25,694 bases of DNA. Origin: a virus. The translations under genes were made by a program, and so were the position numbers. The stretch spans positions 1-25,694 of IMG/VR virus record IMGVR_UViG_3300035184_000339, one strand, 5' to 3'. Positions within the stretch are counted from its first letter, which is position 1. Each line of letters starts with the position of its first letter. Of this stretch, positions 2,641-21,504 are shown piece by piece. The notes under the pieces were generated by a model. It did not search any database, was not told where the DNA came from, and worked only from the letters and a program-made list of their open reading frames with translations.

Positions 2641-4689
2641 TTAATTTTTGTTGAGATTCTTAATCAATGAGTCTATCTTGCTTATTAATGAATTGAAAGG
2701 AGCCAGTTCTTCCTCATCTGCACCTGTAAAATTCTCCCGCCTTCTATCTTTTTTGAGTTCGTTTAAGATGGCGTAAAGAGAATTCGAAAATTCTTTGTTC
2801 TCTTCTGCAAGAGATGCTAACTCTTCTACACCCATATCACTTATTTGCTGATTTTGCTTATTCCTAGTAAGTTTTGAAAACTCCGGCTGTACGCCAGCAG
2901 TTTTATTAAATTTACCCTGTGTTCTATTAATTGCTGCTGTTAGATTATCTATGGCAGTAGTATTGCCTCGTATTGACTCAAACTCTCCCTCTGCCATTGT
3001 TAGCTTTTTAGCAGCGGTGGCAGTATTAATTGCGAAGGCAACACTATCAATAATTTTCGATTCAATGTCCATTGATGTCTCTGCTGCTTTGCCAACAACA
3101 CCAGAAAAAGCCGCGCCCGCATCTCCCATTGCCTTAGTAAGTTGTAAAGAAGATTCATTGAGTTGACTGGTATATTTAGTAAGATCAATTGCAGCCAAAG
3201 TCATGTTTCCGATATTTTCTAACTCTTTATCTCTCTGCCTAGCAACTTCAATCGTTTGATTCATCGCTTGGTCCTCTGATGTGATTCCAATACGGCCAGC
3301 GTCTGCATTTTTTAACGTCTGTAGCATCTCCATAGCGGCTGCTTGTGATGCCTGTGCATTTCCAACATCTGACAATATCAATGAACTATTGGTTTTACCA
3401 AATTGTACCATTGCCTCTAATGATGGTCCCATACTGGCTAATGCTGCCTGCATTGCTTCTGGTCCTCCACTAGAAGCAGAGGCGATTTGTTCTATCATCG
3501 GCAAGAACTGTGCAGTCAATGCATCACTATTAATATTCGTAAATTCAGCAGTCTGTGCGAAAGCGCCTGCACTTCCAGCTGCTAAACGTGTAGCCAAGGC
3601 TTGAGCAAACGGTGAATCTTGTCCACCGAATTGTCCGACCATATTTTTTACAGCATCCGCAGTTGTTTTATCTAGTGTAGATAGCATTGAAGCGAATTTA
3701 TCCTGTTTTAGAGTATCCCTAATCATTTCCGCAGCATCTTGTAGATTAATTTTCATTATGTTAGACGTAGATACAACAGTTGACATGAAGCTGTCCATTC
3801 CAGAACGCAAATCGGCATTTGAAATTTTGTCTAATTGTCCTAACGAACGTACACTATCAAGATAAGTACCAGCAATATCACTGACTTCTCTGAATTCCAT
3901 TCCGAAATTGTTCATCATATCACCCATACCTTCGCCACTAGATGCCATACTATTTGCAAATTCCATCGAGGCTTTTACTCCTCGGATACCCACTGACTGT
4001 GAAAATTGTTGCGTAAATCGCTGTGCTTCTCCGAATGTGAAGTTAGCAGCAGTTATAGTCTTTGCAATATTAGTCATTCCAGCACTGAAAGTATCCATTC
4101 CAGCAAACATACCGGATTGTCTCATTTCTTGTGATAAATTGAAACGATCCATGCCACCTTGCTTGACTGCCTCGTTTAAGCCTTTGCCAGCAATAAGGAG
4201 CTTCTTAACAAACCCTGCGCCATCCTCTGCTATCTTTTTCATTTTCTCAATATCAGATTTACCTTCACCAAACTCTGCTTCTATCCTTGCCGCGTCTGGC
4301 GACACACCTTTACTAGTTAATTTCTTGATTTGCTCTTGTATTCTATTTCCGCGTTCAGTAGCAGCTACTAACTTATTTGTACCAGTTAACATTCTAGTCA
4401 AAAAGGAAAGTTGATGTTCTTCAGTTTTACCGGTGGATTTAGCTTCTTTATGTGTCTTAGTTGCAACGCTATTTGCCTGTGCTAACTGAGAAACTGCTGC
4501 TGAAAGTTGAGCAGATGTAGACTTATCTCCGTTAACAATTTTTTGTAGTACCGCAAGCATCTGAGTATTTGCTTGAGTATTTTTATTCATGCCAGTTTGC
4601 ATAACTTTTAATAGTTGTTGCTGTGTAGTCTCAGTGCTCCATACTGGAAGTCCTGATCCTAATCCTTCAATATAAACACTATCAGCCAT
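2641..4689 (-). CDS. Probable tail tape measure protein (gp29-like)
   Basis: A 682-residue protein rich in Ala, Ser, Met, Gln and charged residues and almost entirely predicted helical, with few aromatics. It starts with an N-terminal segment (GLPVWSTETTQQQLLKVM, about residues 13-30) of a type seen at the start of tape-measure-like proteins in marine T4-like phages. T4 gp29 has 590 residues, so the length fits. Such a protein sits in the tail tube, sets tail length and is ejected with DNA. It lies directly opposite the gp26-like chaperone genes, which are the usual partners of a tape measure. The ATG at 4689 is preceded by an AAAGGTGA ribosome site. The call rests on composition, length and context. 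Another elongated virion protein is possible. Confidence 0.65.
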   Translation of the reverse strand: MADSVYIEGLGSGLPVWSTETTQQQLLKVMQTGMNKNTQANTQMLAVLQKIVNGDKSTSAQLSAAVSQLAQANSVATKTHKEAKSTGKTEEHQLSFLTRMLTGTNKLVAATERGNRIQEQIKKLTSKGVSPDAARIEAEFGEGKSDIEKMKKIAEDGAGFVKKLLIAGKGLNEAVKQGGMDRFNLSQEMRQSGMFAGMDTFSAGMTNIAKTITAANFTFGEAQRFTQQFSQSVGIRGVKASMEFANSMASSGEGMGDMMNNFGMEFREVSDIAGTYLDSVRSLGQLDKISNADLRSGMDSFMSTVVSTSNIMKINLQDAAEMIRDTLKQDKFASMLSTLDKTTADAVKNMVGQFGGQDSPFAQALATRLAAGSAGAFAQTAEFTNINSDALTAQFLPMIEQIASASSGGPEAMQAALASMGPSLEAMVQFGKTNSSLILSDVGNAQASQAAAMEMLQTLKNADAGRIGITSEDQAMNQTIEVARQRDKELENIGNMTLAAIDLTKYTSQLNESSLQLTKAMGDAGAAFSGVVGKAAETSMDIESKIIDSVAFAINTATAAKKLTMAEGEFESIRGNTTAIDNLTAAINRTQGKFNKTAGVQPEFSKLTRNKQNQQISDMGVEELASLAEENKEFSNSLYAILNELKKDRRRENFTGADEEELAPFNSLISKIDSLIKNLNKN

Positions 4690-4791: not shown

Positions 4792-5625
4792 ATGAACCCA
4801 CTAAACAAGTATTTTAGGCAACCTAAAATTTACATAAAATTGCCAACTGGCGGCAAATTTAATCCAGAACTAGAAACAACTGTATTAGATGAAATTGGTG
4901 TGTGCTCTATGTCTGCCATAGATGAAATAACATTGAAGAATCCAGAATCACTACTCAATGGCGAGGCAATCATCAGTATAATAAAAAGTTGTGTTCCCAG
5001 TATTTCTGATCCTAGAAAATTATGTAATATAGATGTAGAAGCATTATTCCTAGCAATACAGTACGCAACTTACAACAAAGATATAACACACGAACATACA
5101 TGTAGTAAATGTAGTGAAGTCAGTGAATTTTCAATTGACGTTAACTATATGTTAAATCGTTTTCCAGATATTGATTTCATTGAACCAATTCAATATGAGG
5201 ATGCATTGATTCATATCAGACCGCCGACAGTGGATAACATCACTAGAATGACACTCATTGATTTAGAACAAAAACGTATTATCCAGGGGCTATCTACAGT
5301 AGATGACCAGTCTGAAGAAATGGAAGTGGCAAAGAAGTTCTACAATAGTTTTAAGAAAATTGCAGAATTCAATGTTGACATGTTAGCAAATGCAATAAGT
5401 CATATTGAAATCCCAGATATGAAAGTAAGTGACCAAGATCAAATTTCTGAGTTTTTACATAATATACCAACCACATTAGTAGACGAAATCAATGAAGCAG
5501 TTGGGAAATTAGTGGATAAACCAGAAGAAGCAACATTAATGAAGTTTGTATGTTCAGAATGTGGTCAAGAGGACGAGGTACAGATGGAGATGAACCCTGC
5601 AAATTTTTCAAAAGCTGGCTCTTGA
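4792..5625 (+). CDS. 26: gp26-like tail/baseplate assembly protein (upstream part of a frameshift pair)
   Basis: A 277-residue protein. The N-terminal motif (QPKIYIKLPTGGKF, residues 10-23) and the MSAIDEITLKNPESLLNGEA stretch are characteristic of the T4 gp26 family, annotated as baseplate hub or hub-assembly protein. It carries two CxxC pairs (Cys104/107 and Cys254/257), suggesting a bound zinc. T4 gp26 has 208 residues. Good ribosome site (AAGGAAA) 8 bases before the ATG. The last codons overlap a second ORF in the -1 frame, and an AAATTTT slippery heptamer with a downstream hairpin lies at 5601-5637. A fraction of ribosomes may therefore make a longer 349-residue product. This resembles tail assembly chaperone pairs such as lambda G/GT, which act on the tape measure protein, here the divergent neighbour. 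Confidence 0.85.
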   Translation: MNPLNKYFRQPKIYIKLPTGGKFNPELETTVLDEIGVCSMSAIDEITLKNPESLLNGEAIISIIKSCVPSISDPRKLCNIDVEALFLAIQYATYNKDITHEHTCSKCSEVSEFSIDVNYMLNRFPDIDFIEPIQYEDALIHIRPPTVDNITRMTLIDLEQKRIIQGLSTVDDQSEEMEVAKKFYNSFKKIAEFNVDMLANAISHIEIPDMKVSDQDQISEFLHNIPTTLVDEINEAVGKLVDKPEEATLMKFVCSECGQEDEVQMEMNPANFSKAGS

Positions 5626-5840
5626 CCGCAACCCAGCAAGATATACAAAAAAAATCAGATAATTTTGAAAAAGAGCTTGACATGTTTCATAAAAATATGT
5701 TAAGATTATGTTGGTACATGAGGGGCGGAGTAACAATAGAACAAATGTACGATATGCCTCCCGCTCACTTAGAACACATTAATTCCATCGTAGAAGATAA
5801 TTTTGAAATGAGTAAGAAGGCAGGAATGCCAATAATATAA
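5550..5840 (+). CDS. Tail-assembly chaperone C-terminal module, probably made by -1 frameshift
   Basis: An open frame in the -1 phase relative to the gp26-like gene. The nominal ATG at 5550 has no ribosome site and its first ~18 codons are merely the overlapping frame. The conserved-looking part begins near 5607 (FKSWLLTATQQ) and continues through a helical segment with LRLCWYMRGG to a KKAGMPII end. Short proteins with a WYMRGG motif and a 'KK(S/A)G.P' tail follow gp26 in marine T4-like phages and are sometimes labelled gp51. T4 gp51 itself is much longer, so I do not use that symbol. Entry at 5601-5607 would fuse 77 residues to the first 272 of the upstream protein. Alternatively it starts internally, for example at the ATG at 5681, where AAGAG lies upstream. 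Confidence 0.65.
   Translation: MFRMWSRGRGTDGDEPCKFFKSWLLTATQQDIQKKSDNFEKELDMFHKNMLRLCWYMRGGVTIEQMYDMPPAHLEHINSIVEDNFEMSKKAGMPII
5601..5637 (+). other. Candidate -1 programmed ribosomal frameshift signal
   Basis: The heptamer A AAT TTT (5601-5607) matches X XXY YYZ in the correct phase of the gp26-like frame. Six bases later a hairpin begins: GCTGG (5614-5618) pairs with CCAGC (5633-5637) around a 14-base loop that contains the zero-frame TGA stop. The loop bases CTCTT (5619-5623) could also pair with AAGAG at 5671-5675 as a pseudoknot. Confidence 0.7.
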
Positions 5841-5854
5841 TTTTAAAATACATC

Positions 5855-5883
5855 TTGCAATTATGTAAAAATTGATGTATACT
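5855..5883 (+). promoter_or_regulatory. Sigma-70-like promoter into the gene-free region
   Basis: Plus strand TTGCAA (5855-5860), 17-base spacer, TATACT (5878-5883). That is 4/6 and 5/6 of consensus. A perfect 10-base palindrome, TGTACGTACA (5883-5892), covers the expected start point and could be an operator. No ORF follows for 700 bases, so the product would be an RNA. Confidence 0.5.
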
Positions 5884-5892
5884 GTACGTACA

Positions 5893-5937
5893 CTAATATA
5901 AATCTAATATAAATCTAAATACACAGCTAATATAAAC
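5893..5937 (+). repeat. Repeated CTAATATAAAY units
   Basis: CTAATATAAAT occurs at 5893-5903 and 5904-5914 back to back, and CTAATATAAAC at 5927-5937. A partial CTAAAT lies between them. Each unit contains TATAAA(T/C)C, close to the late box TATAAATA, so the array may be weak tandem late promoters, a binding array, or simple AT-rich repetition. Confidence 0.6.
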
Positions 5938-6521
5938 CTAGTACATTACCCCCATAACTAATAAAATGCTAATATATCAAACATAGTGGAACTGTTAGTT
6001 GGGTAGCCAACTCGGGATTGAATCTGCCAGCATTTAAAGATGTTGTTGCCGTTAGACTAGTAGGGATGAATTCCTACCATCTTCTCGTTAACCACAAATA
6101 AGAGTATTCAAAATATTCAACAGCCATGACTCTAAAGGTCAGGGCTGACCAGTTTCTACCGTGCTTTTTAGCACATACTGCTGATAGACTACTTAGTACT
6201 ATCGACTCTACAATGTTTTTTAATGTATAGATATTGTAAGGGTGCCGTTGGGTCGCAAGACGCAATAGTGAATGATGAGGGGATCGCCAACCGACCTCGC
6301 TGTATCTGGCAGCTAGTTCACATACATTAGTTACGAGCATAGGACAGATTCATATCTGTGTTAAGTTTTTTTCAATTGTCCTGGCAACAGGGCAATTGTG
6401 TCTACTTCACAGGACAGAATATATAAGATTATATCATAATTATATTATATATTAATATATATGTGGATTAGAAAAGAAATACTGAATTAAATGAATGAGT
6501 GGAACGAATGAAGTTAATGAA

Positions 6522-6554
6522 AGTATTAGGTCTTTAGACCTTTTAATGAATACT
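6522..6554 (+). terminator. Weak hairpin terminator before the nuclease gene
   Basis: AGGTC-TTTA-GACCT (6528-6541) followed by TTT, with an outer AGTATT/AATACT pairing (6522-6527/6549-6554). The U-run is short, so termination may be partial and allow read-through into the gene at 6619. Confidence 0.4.
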
Positions 6555-6618
6555 AAAAAAAATATATATTATTATATTGTGTAAATAGATAGTAATGATA
6601 ACATAGAAATGGACAGAT

Positions 6619-13219: not shown

Positions 13220-16200
13220 ATGGCTGGTATACCTAGAAATATAAGAAACAATAATCCTGGCAATATCAGAATTAGCAAAAGTAATGATTGGGACGGTGCA
13301 GTTAAAGGCACTGACACCGAGTTTGAAACATTTGCTACTCCTGAGATGGGTGTTCGTGCAATGGTTAAAACATTGCATACATATCAATCTCGCTACAATG
13401 ATCAAACTGTTAGTCAAATAATTAGTCGTTGGGCACCACCAAATGAAAATGATACCGCAGGGTATATTGAGTTTGTTTCTAAAAGTATGGGGGTAGACCC
13501 GAATACTCCAGTTGATTTAAAGAATAATCCAGCACTTACTAAAAAACTTGTAAACGCTATGATACAGAAAGAAGGTGGTGTGAAATCATCAAACTTTTTT
13601 GACAGTCATGTAAGTAAAGGGATAGCATTAGCATCCAATAATAATTCCGTTGTACCAGAAGTACCAGATGAACTAGATAGTTCAGCAGGACTAGATACGG
13701 GACTAGATGCGTTCGGTGGAACTGGAAATTTTATCCCCACGTCTGATACCAGAGATGAAGATGCTGCTATGTCACAATCTCTTGTTCCAGCAAAACCTAG
13801 TTTTGCCAGTGGTTCATTTTCCAATATGAAAGAAGTATTGAATTTTGTAGAAGAAAATGGTGATATATGGGACAATGAACTTGATACGTATGAAAACTAT
13901 TCATACAATGTAGAGCTATTCATCGTACCTGAAAATGTATCACGTGAATTTTTGGCTTTTGGCAGAGACTCTGAATTAGACTTTAAAGAAGTTATAAATG
14001 ATGAGTGGCCCGCAAATGATGTTTCTTATATCACTATTGCAAAAACTGCCACAACAACTGAATTTAGTATTGATAACCTACAAATAGACTCTCGGGCGGC
14101 TGGTTCTGGCAATGCGCTAAAAATGGTAGGTCTTGATGTGTCACTGTCTTTTGATATTACACAAATTGGTAATACTAATCTATCTGACTCACTTATGGCG
14201 GCTTGTACACTGATGGGGTATCCTTTGATATCACAAGCAACATTTTATTTTAAGATAACATATAAAGGATACGAAGACGGTAATCCAGAAAATTCTGATA
14301 AGTTGCCAATAACTAAAGTAGTGCCATTTAGATTAAGTAAGTTAATTGACTTAGCAACGACAACTAATTCTTCTGGAACAGTAACCTCACTTGAGGGTAA
14401 TATATTATCTGCCACATCTACGTATCATGATGTTAATACTACTAAAATAGATGTACAGTGGATTATTGGTACTACACTTGAAGAAACTTTACAGCATTTT
14501 GTTGATGCATTGAATAAAGCGCAAAATCCTTTTGCTGGATATAACGAAGACCAGCAGATGTTTACTAATTCATATGCTATTGAATACAGTGAATCATTCG
14601 AAAACTTCAAAGCTTCGAAGATGAATGGAATTGAATCTAATAAAAGTTCTGCAAGTAATGATATCGATGAGCGCACTAACGGTATAAACATATCAAAGCA
14701 AATTGGACAGATTACTCCTGGTATTAGTGTAATTGATATTTTATATGATATGTGTATACAATCACTTGATGTTCGCAAGGAATTACTGGCAGAAAACGAT
14801 GCCTTTAATAAAGTTATACGTATTATACCAGAAGTAATACCAAAAGAGAACGGTTATAATGTTTTAACTGGCACATATGGTGTCGATGTAAAGTATGTTA
14901 TTACTATGCATGAAGAAGTGGTTATACAAAATCAATCGGACCAAGTTAATAGAATTTCTACAACACGTAAATTACTTGAACAAATCTTTGATCGAAAAAG
15001 ATGTAGAAAAGTTTACTACCATGATTACACTGGGTTAAATGACCAGATACTAGATTTGACTATTTCACTTGATCGTCAACTTCAAAAAACATATCGTGTG
15101 CCAGAAGATTCATTTGCGTGGAATGTATTCTTGAAACCTGGCACCGATTTGAAATCCTCGTTAGATGCTGACCAGCTAAAAACCTTCAACGACATCAACA
15201 AGAAAATTACAGATTTAGCAGCCGTCAAAGACAAGCAAAGCAAAGACGTTGATAAAATGCAAAACGAGTTAGTTGATCTAAAAGAAGATATCTTCATTGG
15301 CGTAAAAGAAAAAGCTGATGCTACTGGACCATTCGAGCACAATGAAACAAATCCATTTGCTGGTCTTGACCAAAACTTCGATGACCCTAATTTCTTGTCA
15401 AAATTAAAGTCAGTTAACCCGGAAATATTTGATGAAGTTACCAAGGGCGCCCGTAAGGAAAACTTTGACCGGCTAAGAAAGGCGATAGATAAAGCGACTG
15501 GATTAGTAAACGGCACTAATGATGAAATCAATGAATTGCAAAAAGAAGCAGATATATTAATACAATCTCAGCTAGGAGCTAAAGTAACACAGGAATTTGA
15601 AGGAGTACTACGTGAAAGTGCGGATCAAGTATTACAAGGAGTAGATTCTACTGGAGGATTAATTCTGTTAGAAGAATTAGGAAGTGACTTTATATCTAGT
15701 AAACTTGATAATAAACAGTTTTCAGCTTTAATGGATGTTATGATGTTGAACCCCGTGACATTTACCAGAGCTATACTACCTAGATTACACGGCAGTAGTG
15801 TACCGTCTGCGTTTAAGTCTAGTGACATGGAAAATTTGGTATTAGCAAGAAGTAAATTCAATGAATCATTGGATGCCGATATGAGTATGCATCGCCTTAG
15901 TATGACTATTAAGGGTGATCCATTCTGGTCAGAATATTACATGACCACGGAAAAAGCAAAAGAAATTTTTAATAAAGATAATAGTAATGATGAATTTAAA
16001 TCGTATCAATCAAAAGTAAATGGTTCTAACTTTATGATGTTAGTTGTTAATAAAGCAGCTGGAGTAGATGAGTTCGACAACATACAAATAGAGGAGTTAG
16101 ATGTATTTGTGTATCAGGTAAACTCTGTTCTGAGTATGTTCTCTCGTGGACATTTCACACAACAATTAGAATGCGTGAGAATGCCTATACCAGTTAACTT

Positions 16201-18229
16201 TGCTGCACAAGTAGATAGTACAGGCAGTGGACCCACATTCGGATTTGGTACCGCGGCTGACGGTGAGTTTGGTGGAATGGGACCTAATAATGACGGTCTC
16301 TTTGATTTTGGAACAGGCGGAGAATTTGCTGGGGTAACTAATCGTATAGGCGGCGGGAGAGGCAGTGATCCTAGTGCATTCGGTGACCTGTTCGGCAGAG
16401 GTATTCCTGGACTAGATGCATTTGGCGGTGTAGGAGCAGCAATTGGCGGCGCGAATCCATTAGATGCATTTGGAGGAGCAGGCGAGTTACTCGGCATTGC
16501 TGAACTTGGCAGAGGCGGAGCTTTAGATCCCAGAATTGTAGCAGAAAATAGTTTTAATAGAATGTCAGGCGGACTATCATCACTTGCTACTGTAATATCA
16601 GAATCTTCATTGCCGACATCTGACCAAGCATCTAGATTGTCTTCTCTGTTGAATGAAGCACAAATGGCTAGTAACTTTGGTTCTACAAGTGCGACTGCAT
16701 CTATTGCAAATATAAAATCATTAATGCAAGATACTTTCGGTACACCAGCAGAAGCAAGTGAAATTTTACAAGAGTTGACTGATATCGGCGAAATAGTTTC
16801 CCCAGAGTTAATAGCAATGTTAAATACTCAAGTGTATGAAGACGAAACAGTTACTGCGCCCACTGGCGTTGATACAGCAGCAGTTATTGAAGTTATGAGT
16901 GAGATTGAAAATATTAATAATTTAAATACTAGTAGTGTGGACGAGATAGCATTTAATGTGCCGGCGTTTATTACTCCAGTAGTTAATACAGATCCAACGA
17001 ATACTACTGCGCCTAGTAAACTTGAATTGTCAAATTCTAACATGATGTTAGATGGTATACTTCCATTGGAATCAACTACAACATACAAAAGTACAGATCC
17101 AGTTGAAGAGAATTATGATTCTGTGAAGTTAGAAAACTCTGATTTACCAGAAGATGTAAAACAGGGTTATAAAGATGTAGTAGCCAGTAATAATGGAATT
17201 AAAGTACGTAAGTATTTGGATAGTTTACCAGCCAACCAAGCAGCAGAATTAGAAAATATTGATAATAATTTCACCGAACAAACCAATAGTACCGCTACAG
17301 CGGCTACGGCTACGATAGCGGAAATAGTTGCGACACCGTTAAAAACTCCCAGAGAGGCTATCATGCAAGCGAGAATTATGGATGCCCAGAGACAAATGAT
17401 TGCAGAAGCCGGTGGAAGTTATAATGATTTATCATCAGATGAAAAACGTCATTATGAAAATCTAGGCGATGCGTATGATGATATAGATGTCGCAGCACAG
17501 ATGGATCCTATCCGTAATGAATCAAAATTAATTAAGATTACTGATGAGTTAGATAAATCAATTAGAATATATAATGATAAATTATCTGGCGGTGACAGTG
17601 AATGGAGTTGGAATGAGGAAGAGGCAGAAACGAAACAGAAAGAATTAGACCAAGCGAAACAGAATGTGGCAGATTTGGCTTTAAATTCTGTTTCGTCATC
17701 GGCTGCACGTGTCAGAGTTAATGAAGGTGGCTCAACCAGTATCATGTTTGATCAAACTCTGCCTGCTGAGCCTACTCCAGGTTATAAACTACCAATAAAT
17801 ACTCTTTTTAATTCTAAAGATCCAACTTTTGTTCCAACTGCTGCACATATCGCTCAGTGGGAAGAATCACAAGACATACTTCGTAGAGTGCGATTCGCCG
17901 AAGAAAAAGTGGAAGTTAATGTAGTAACATCTTATGGGGAGACATATAAGATTACTGGTCAGGGCAAAAGATTCGACCCTGCGTTAACTGAATTTTACGG
18001 TTTTGATAGTGGAGTATTTACAGAAGGTGAAACAGTAACTGAAGATGACCCTAGATTCGATACTCAAATGGCACTTAATATAGTTCTTCTGAAGCAAAGA
18101 ATTGCAGAGAATTATCCATTAGTTTCGACCTTAGATTTAATTCCTGAATCCGAATTAACAGAAGAAAACAACGCACTGAAACTCGCGTACGGTGCTGGCC
18201 AGATGATAATTATAGAAGGTAATAACTAA
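13220..18229 (+). CDS. Giant baseplate hub protein with N-terminal muralytic-like domain
   Basis: A 1669-residue protein. Residues 1-120 carry the motif 'RNNNPGNIR...W.G....F..F..PE.G.RAM...L..Y......TV..II.RWAPP.ENDT..YI', known from phage structural peptidoglycan hydrolases. Residues ~225-460 are beta-rich virion-like sequence. Residues ~640-710 form a charged coiled coil. A segment near 900 (MTIKGDPFWSEYY) matches the 'IKGDPYW' type found in myophage hub proteins. Residues ~1020-1110 are Gly-rich with three LDAFGG motifs, and the rest is Ala/Ser/Glu-rich and partly helical. Position between gp53 and the gp5-like spike argues for the hub (gp27/gp29-like role). No single T4 gene matches the whole, so it may be a fusion. 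The stop overlaps the next ATG by one base (TAATG). Confidence 0.7.
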   Translation: MAGIPRNIRNNNPGNIRISKSNDWDGAVKGTDTEFETFATPEMGVRAMVKTLHTYQSRYNDQTVSQIISRWAPPNENDTAGYIEFVSKSMGVDPNTPVDLKNNPALTKKLVNAMIQKEGGVKSSNFFDSHVSKGIALASNNNSVVPEVPDELDSSAGLDTGLDAFGGTGNFIPTSDTRDEDAAMSQSLVPAKPSFASGSFSNMKEVLNFVEENGDIWDNELDTYENYSYNVELFIVPENVSREFLAFGRDSELDFKEVINDEWPANDVSYITIAKTATTTEFSIDNLQIDSRAAGSGNALKMVGLDVSLSFDITQIGNTNLSDSLMAACTLMGYPLISQATFYFKITYKGYEDGNPENSDKLPITKVVPFRLSKLIDLATTTNSSGTVTSLEGNILSATSTYHDVNTTKIDVQWIIGTTLEETLQHFVDALNKAQNPFAGYNEDQQMFTNSYAIEYSESFENFKASKMNGIESNKSSASNDIDERTNGINISKQIGQITPGISVIDILYDMCIQSLDVRKELLAENDAFNKVIRIIPEVIPKENGYNVLTGTYGVDVKYVITMHEEVVIQNQSDQVNRISTTRKLLEQIFDRKRCRKVYYHDYTGLNDQILDLTISLDRQLQKTYRVPEDSFAWNVFLKPGTDLKSSLDADQLKTFNDINKKITDLAAVKDKQSKDVDKMQNELVDLKEDIFIGVKEKADATGPFEHNETNPFAGLDQNFDDPNFLSKLKSVNPEIFDEVTKGARKENFDRLRKAIDKATGLVNGTNDEINELQKEADILIQSQLGAKVTQEFEGVLRESADQVLQGVDSTGGLILLEELGSDFISSKLDNKQFSALMDVMMLNPVTFTRAILPRLHGSSVPSAFKSSDMENLVLARSKFNESLDADMSMHRLSMTIKGDPFWSEYYMTTEKAKEIFNKDNSNDEFKSYQSKVNGSNFMMLVVNKAAGVDEFDNIQIEELDVFVYQVNSVLSMFSRGHFTQQLECVRMPIPVNFAAQVDSTGSGPTFGFGTAADGEFGGMGPNNDGLFDFGTGGEFAGVTNRIGGGRGSDPSAFGDLFGRGIPGLDAFGGVGAAIGGANPLDAFGGAGELLGIAELGRGGALDPRIVAENSFNRMSGGLSSLATVISESSLPTSDQASRLSSLLNEAQMASNFGSTSATASIANIKSLMQDTFGTPAEASEILQELTDIGEIVSPELIAMLNTQVYEDETVTAPTGVDTAAVIEVMSEIENINNLNTSSVDEIAFNVPAFITPVVNTDPTNTTAPSKLELSNSNMMLDGILPLESTTTYKSTDPVEENYDSVKLENSDLPEDVKQGYKDVVASNNGIKVRKYLDSLPANQAAELENIDNNFTEQTNSTATAATATIAEIVATPLKTPREAIMQARIMDAQRQMIAEAGGSYNDLSSDEKRHYENLGDAYDDIDVAAQMDPIRNESKLIKITDELDKSIRIYNDKLSGGDSEWSWNEEEAETKQKELDQAKQNVADLALNSVSSSAARVRVNEGGSTSIMFDQTLPAEPTPGYKLPINTLFNSKDPTFVPTAAHIAQWEESQDILRRVRFAEEKVEVNVVTSYGETYKITGQGKRFDPALTEFYGFDSGVFTEGETVTEDDPRFDTQMALNIVLLKQRIAENYPLVSTLDLIPESELTEENNALKLAYGAGQMIIIEGNN

Positions 18230-20269: not shown

Positions 20270-20908
20270 ATGATTTATGATAAGCGCAAAGGTTCATTGT
20301 TAAACTACATACAATTACCATTACACACTATTACACCGTATGGTACTTATCTAGGGACAGGATATGATGTGAATTCATTGCCTACTTACATATTATCAAG
20401 TACCCGAGTTACTGCCTTTCCTGTAAACGAACTTGTATTTTCTAATCTTAGTAAGAATGCTATTATTCGGGATGTGGTACCAACGCTAGAGATAAAGAAT
20501 GGAATGATTGGATATAATTATGAAATATCAGATGTAGAATATAAGTATGGGTATATTACGGTAGCATCACAAAGAATTAGTATTACTTCCCAGAAGATAA
20601 CACAAAACGCAGCACAGTTTCTTCTTGAGAAGCAGTTACGTGCAATCGGTAACATATTAGAAATATTTGTTAAACAACCGTTAGGTCAACCACAATTTGA
20701 TGCTTTGGTACATTATTTTTATTATGAAGGAGTAAGTAATATACCGAATCATAACATTATTAATCTTATTAATAGAGAAAAATGGTTTGACATTACTGAT
20801 GAAATACAGACTCATATAAAAAGAAAAAACGGCAAAGTCGATGACCGACTTGCCGCTTTAAGAATTGAAACTGCCAAGATGTGGAGTTATGTTCCTGGAT
20901 TTAGTTAA
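20270..20908 (+). CDS. Lysozyme (GH24)-like protein lacking an obvious catalytic N-lobe
   Basis: A 212-residue protein. The C-terminal half (about residues 115-210) follows the phage GH24 lysozyme pattern: an IT..AA.FLLEKQL helix, [25 protein letters not shown] and [19 protein letters not shown]. The N-terminal half (residues 1-110) is beta-rich and has no EG..L.AY.D..G..TIGYG motif, so the Glu-Asp-Thr triad of T4-type lysozymes is not apparent. It may be a structural relative rather than an active enzyme. The ATG at 20270 follows a GGAG site and sits one base after the preceding stop; an earlier in-frame ATG at 20246 lies inside the spike gene. Its stop overlaps the clpP stop tail to tail by 4 bases. 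Confidence 0.7.
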
Positions 20909-21504
20909 AGATCAGGACGCTCTTCGATAACCATATCTACTAGACCATAATCAAGTGCTTCCTGTGCATTCATAAAGTTGTCACGCTCCATTGCAGCCAT
21001 CATTTCTTCTACTGTTTTGCCGGCAGAGTTATGCTTTGCATAGATTTCAGTTAGTGAACGTTTCATCTTTAGAATTTCTTTAACTTGAATTTCCATATCA
21101 GTCGCTTGCCCGCCAGCACCGCCACTTGGTTGATGAATCATATGCCTAGCGTTTGGCAGAATATATCGTTTACCTTTAGCGCCAGCAGTTGCTAGCAATG
21201 AACCCATAGAACATGCTTGTCCTAGAACAGTCGTACAAACATCTGGCTTGATGAATTGCATGGTGTCATAGATTGCCATGCCAGCAGTAACTACTCCTCC
21301 GGGTGAGTTGATATAGAAGTGAATATCTTTTGTTGGATTTTCGCTTTCCATAAATAATAGTTGTGCACATAGTAGGTCTGCTTGATAATCGTTTACTTCT
21401 CCAGTGAGAAAGATTACACGTTCTTTAAGAAGGCGTGAAAAGATATCGTAACTGCGTTCGCCGCCCGCAGTTTGGTCGACGACCATTGGTACTAGATTAG
21501 GCAT
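20905..21504 (-). CDS. clpP: ClpP serine protease (phage-encoded, complete)
   Basis: A 199-residue protein, full length. It is the proteolytic subunit of Clp, a tetradecameric chamber fed by ClpX or ClpA. The catalytic triad is intact: Ser99 ([10 protein letters not shown]), His124 ([10 protein letters not shown]) and Asp175 (ERDNFM). The bacterial core segments [28 protein letters not shown] and the C-terminal EALDYGLVD are almost unchanged, suggesting recent or strongly constrained acquisition from a proteobacterium. The long E. coli propeptide is missing; the protein starts at the mature-like end ([20 protein letters not shown]). No Clp ATPase is seen in the window, so it may use the host's ClpX/ClpA. 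It is on the opposite strand to the flanking baseplate genes and overlaps the upstream small ORF by 8 bases. Confidence 0.97.

Follow-up and report, generated by a model that had tools for sequence, protein, structure and literature searches.

Judging from the sequences compared here, it is very likely that the region from position 4792 to 5840 of the window, i.e. the whole stretch of 25,694 bases analysed (virus record IMGVR_UViG_3300035184_000339), is a single tail assembly chaperone gene from which two products are made by a programmed -1 slip of the ribosome. An earlier note on this DNA had proposed that a programmed -1 frameshift joins the two chaperone ORFs, and this reading is supported by the conservation of the arrangement in 113 of 113 sequences as well as by the lack of a separate start for the downstream ORF in many relatives.

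The short form, TAC-N, is encoded on the plus strand at 4792-5625 (277 residues, computed mass 31.3 kDa) and belongs to the gp26/gp51 family: in profile searches, the zero-frame product matched PF12322 (T4_baseplate; E=1.1e-12, 48.6 bits, above the cut-off of 24.5 bits) and phrog_150 (labelled 'baseplate hub'; E=5.8e-18), in keeping with the gp26-like label given to it earlier. The 3' end of the ORF reads AAC CCT GCA AAT TTT TCA AAA GCT GGC TCT TGA, with the zero-frame stop at 5623-5625 (+), and the slippery heptamer A AAT TTT lies at 5601-5607 (+) in the zero-frame phase, as the earlier note had described. It is the sole in-phase XXXYYYZ (Y=A/T) of the gene 4792-5625. The -1 frame is open for 77 codons to 5840, so that the proposed slip would add the extension TAC-C (5607-5840, +; 77 residues and the stop) and produce a joined protein of 349 residues (40.0 kDa); recomputed from the frames, both lengths agree with the 277/349-residue pair proposed before.

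In the mechanism that we envisage, most ribosomes would keep to the zero frame and terminate at 5625, which would yield the 277-residue TAC-N, the gp26 homologue. A minority would pause at a downstream hairpin while AAT occupies the P site and TTT the A site, move back by one base onto AAA/TTT and read the -1 frame to 5840, and the product of these slipped ribosomes would be TAC-NC, with 349 residues. By analogy with lambda G/GT, both proteins may then keep the tape measure protein coated and in solution until the tail tube polymerises. That the slip occurs, that it is made by a minority of ribosomes and that the products act as chaperones is what we infer from the comparisons described below.

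Taken alone, the window makes a weak case, since at least one in-phase heptamer within the -1-open overlap (5520-5625) also arose in 20.6% of 20,000 codon-order shuffles. What decides the case for frameshifting, as far as sequences can, is the conservation among relatives rather than the window itself. Relatives were collected by tblastn, where 65 phage records matched, all with <60% identity and mostly from jumbo phages, 17 of which were taken (L003-L019), and by two scans of viral_contigs with motifs from the first part of the protein, which are independent of the slip site and contributed 16 loci and then the best 80 of at least 573 loci. The resulting set comprises the window and 113 loci, i.e. 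114 sequences, among them L037, another contig of the window phage. Without L076, which runs off its contig, 113 sequences remain in which the gene end is complete (window included), and these represent 96 distinct sequences, the second scan contributing its 80 best loci out of at least 573.

In all 113 sequences, an in-phase heptamer stands within the last 25 codons, at the homologous place, and is followed by a homologous -1 extension, the length of which is 69-80 residues in the relatives except for L085 and L098, where it is cut by the contig ends. The earlier note had named separate, non-overlapping ORFs or a lost heptamer in relatives as findings that would speak against frameshifting; neither was seen, the arrangement being intact in 113 of 113. 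As for its question whether heptamer, phase and stem are conserved, heptamer and phase are (113/113), whereas the stem is conserved within the window clade (28/28 distinct sequences) and inconsistent outside of it.

The heptamer itself varies. Among the 96 distinct sequences, 46 carry T TTT TTC only and 25 A AAT TTT only, while 21 combine A AAT TTT with T TTT TTC, two combine A AAT TTT with T TTT TTA and two are of the T TTT TTT type; at the site AAATTTTTTC, for example, A AAT TTT overlaps with T TTT TTC. Whatever the type, the junction within the joined protein is identical. Even at synonymous sites, the slippery bases are preserved throughout the 96 distinct sequences: all 96 use TTT for the first Phe and have a T at the end of the preceding codon, compared with 682 TTT and 277 TTC among the Phe codons earlier in these genes, a bias for which a naive probability is unusable as the 96 sequences share kinship.

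The most serious alternative, which we nevertheless regard as quite unlikely, is that the downstream ORF represents a small gene in its own right, whose translation would begin at the TGA by re-initiation or coupling (via TTG 5622) or at an internal ATG (5550 or 5559). It would agree with public annotations, in which a separate gene is listed (121Q gene 595, XbC2_245, GAP32_242), and the -1 frame of the window does offer the candidates ATG 5550, ATG 5559 and TTG 5622, the last of which overlaps the TGA. However, no SD match of at least 4 bases was found at any of these three starts, and in several phages the conserved N-terminal R-x-x-L-L of the extension stands upstream of the annotated start. 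The preservation of slippery bases at synonymous sites likewise argues against a separate gene. When the 96 distinct sequences were scanned for ATG, GTG or TTG from the last upstream -1 stop onward, no start was found before extension codon 10 in 71, before codon 18 in 52, before codon 25 in 35 and before codon 32 in 23 sequences, and a start within the first 25 extension codons stood behind an SD match of at least 5 bases in 6 and of at least 4 bases in 23 of the 96. Since 23 of 96 have no start before extension codon 32, separate initiation cannot be general, and on the basis of the start and SD scans we reject it for the family. The earlier statement that the downstream ORF has no credible start thus holds for the window candidates and extends to the many relatives in which a separate start is missing.

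It is hardly conceivable that the two frames stem from a sequencing or assembly error, or from a recent frameshift mutation in a formerly single ORF. The site is admittedly homopolymer-rich and the contig metagenomic, but another contig of the window phage (L002), which differs at 17 of 4,086 positions, has identical bases at the signal, and assembly error can therefore be ruled out; moreover, the two frames are offset by -1 in the same way in each of the 113 sequences, and nowhere in this set was a single uninterrupted ORF seen. Very improbable, too, is a -1 product that is made yet has no role in tail assembly. In its favour, one may point out that the identity of the neighbouring gene product as tape measure protein is unsupported by profile libraries and T4 gp29. 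Against it stands the constraint on the extension at the protein level, and furthermore the homologous part of cyanophages matches the end of T4 gp51, which is required for hub assembly according to PMC3004832.

This constraint is apparent from the pairwise changes within the window clade, which at -1-frame positions 1/2/3 amount to 4553/3432/6035 for extension codons 5-30 and to 5019/2369/10488 for codons 31-70. Among the 26 members without a start in codons 1-25, the changes in these very codons are 2618/1954/3276. By this measure, the substitution pattern in the -1 extension is protein-like; as a protein family, it is conserved and under constraint.

Returning to the proposed slip, two further elements flank the heptamer of the window and may serve as its stimulators. 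Downstream, after a spacer at 5608-5613, a stem-loop spans 5614-5637 (+), 6 nt 3' of the heptamer, with the arms GCTGG (5614-5618) and CCAGC (5633-5637) and the stop TGA in its loop, in coordinates that agree with the GCTGG/CCAGC hairpin noticed before. The hairpin of the window is modest (-8.1 kcal/mol, z -1.95), but it has counterparts throughout its clade: in all 28 distinct sequences a hairpin of the GCTGG/CCAGC type begins 5-7 nt past the heptamer, and 26 of 28 have z<-1 against -1-frame synonymous variants (mean z -1.78). The 3' arm of the window is shifted by 4 nt from the usual place in the clade, that of L041 is likewise displaced downstream by a few bases, and the hairpins of L038 and L040 pair differently from the rest. 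In the outer pairs of the clade stem, G-C is exchanged for A-U or G-U and C-G for G-C. The covariation is weak, its score being reached by 16 of 500 shuffles; two pairs changed on both sides, a number that 224 of 500 shuffles also attained. In the 63 distinct sequences outside the clade, hairpins range from strong to absent, with z<-1 in 21 of them.

Upstream, an SD-like GGAG at 5586-5589 (+), 11 nt before the heptamer and with an anti-SD pairing of -6.4, is a tentative stimulator. An SD 4-mer some 10 nt upstream of the heptamer is present in 10 of 28 sequences of the window clade and in 0 of 63 others, and the mean z of the anti-SD pairing is -1.6 in the clade compared with -0.28 in the others. 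In addition, the slip site is bracketed by an inverted repeat of 12 bases with one wobble, in which TGTGGTCAAGAG (about 5562-5573) faces CTCTTGACCGCA (about 5619-5630). It is confined to the window, other clade members reaching 5-10 bases, and because of this peculiarity it was left unused as evidence.

The sequences with T TTT TTC only are mostly devoid of hairpin and SD-like sequence, and two heptamers are kept by 23 of the 96 distinct sequences. One could speculate, at slightly less than even chances from our point of view, that the family forms a natural series in which lineages switched the heptamer and rebuilt the signal around it, in the window clade with A AAT TTT, a matching hairpin and partly an SD-like sequence, while the product stayed constant. 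If true, such a series would show the rebuilding of a frameshift signal under an unchanged product.

Vladimirov, Gautam and Davidson are said to have named the gp26/gp51 homologues tail assembly chaperones in 2022, and their abstract reportedly states that several T4-like groups keep the frameshift and that T4 uses two genes. In phage lambda, the short and the long chaperone G and GT are made from one gene by a -1 slip, with a slip site and a protein family different from those of the window. The cassette of E. coli dnaX consists of an upstream SD-like element, a heptamer and a downstream hairpin. The window resembles it in having these three elements; it differs in the heptamer and by the SD-like element being present in only 10 of 28 sequences of the clade. 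For lambda G/GT, PMC10885494 cites Xu (2004). PMC10885494 and PMC12846349 cite frameshifting in the tail assembly chaperones of T4-like phages as published (Vladimirov, 2022); the former adds that, in place of frameshifting, some T4-like phages possess a short gene together with a long, fused one, and the latter that TAC-N genes of T4-like phages are known to contain poly-T signals, and it reports a GTTTTT site in Vandenendeviridae. As it is already in print for T4-like phages, the frameshift described here is of a known kind.

We re-read five T4-like phages in this light and found a site followed by a -1 extension of 57-63 residues in 5 of 5, with T TTT TTC at the end of the PF12322 gene in the cyanophages P-SSM2 and S-PM2 and in KVP40, and T TTT TTT in phiM12 and Pelagibacter phage HTVC008M. 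The window clade shares with the TAC-N/TAC-NC of T4-like phages the PF12322 family, the slip site near the stop and the -1 extension, but it uses A AAT TTT, often alone, together with a conserved hairpin. It is thus an added, poorly annotated case of the same scheme. T4 itself differs, as its genes 26 and 51 are separate and divergently oriented and no slippery heptamer was found at the end of gene 26; the products of both match PF12322, and a C-terminal segment of gp51 (residues 210-245) resembles the cyanophage -1 extension (hhalign probability 89.8%). The extension of the window clade aligned in register with the cyanophage extension, albeit weakly (probability 21%), and its direct comparison with T4 gp51 failed to give a significant match (probability 2%). 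Its sequence therefore weakly resembles the C-terminus of gp51, more clearly through the cyanophages, by way of which the relation stands, than directly. AlphaFold2 predicts an all-helical TAC-C (pLDDT 91.4) and an alpha/beta TAC-N (pLDDT 81.7); a fold search of the PDB with both models returned no match at E<=0.001 and no known chaperone.

The finding connects the scheme of frameshifted chaperones with a large and mostly uncultured set of T4-like phages, i.e. jumbo relatives of RaK2, 121Q, GAP32 and Atu_ph07 as well as many environmental contigs, and it lends weight to the idea that T4, with its two genes, is the exception. In the open-licence literature, we found no paper in which frameshifting is treated together with jumbo phages, RaK2 or 121Q. 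Public annotations of these phages divide the long product or leave it out: in 121Q, GAP32 and others the extension appears as a separate gene, and in RaK2 and PA5oct it is unannotated.

With regard to the surroundings of the gene, the earlier note had placed it next to the tape measure gene, a claim that our searches did not bear out. The neighbour at 2641-4689 (-) encodes a protein of 682 residues that has no family match in the window phage; no tape measure family of the profile libraries was matched, nor was T4 gp29, and an annotation note in RaK2 is the sole pointer to such an identity. It is possible that 2641-4689 encodes the tape measure protein. This gene adjoins the portal gene, as it does in RaK2, Phosso and PA5oct. 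Past the chaperone gene, about 700 bases (5850-6560) contain GC-richer, possibly structured parts and no convincing gene; neither Rfam families nor tRNAs were found in the window. The ORF at 13220-18229 encodes 1669 residues, the first 140 of which resemble transglycosylase/endolysin and tape-measure families, and a Clp protease gene (20905-21504; PF00574, E 5.4e-80) lies amid the structural genes.
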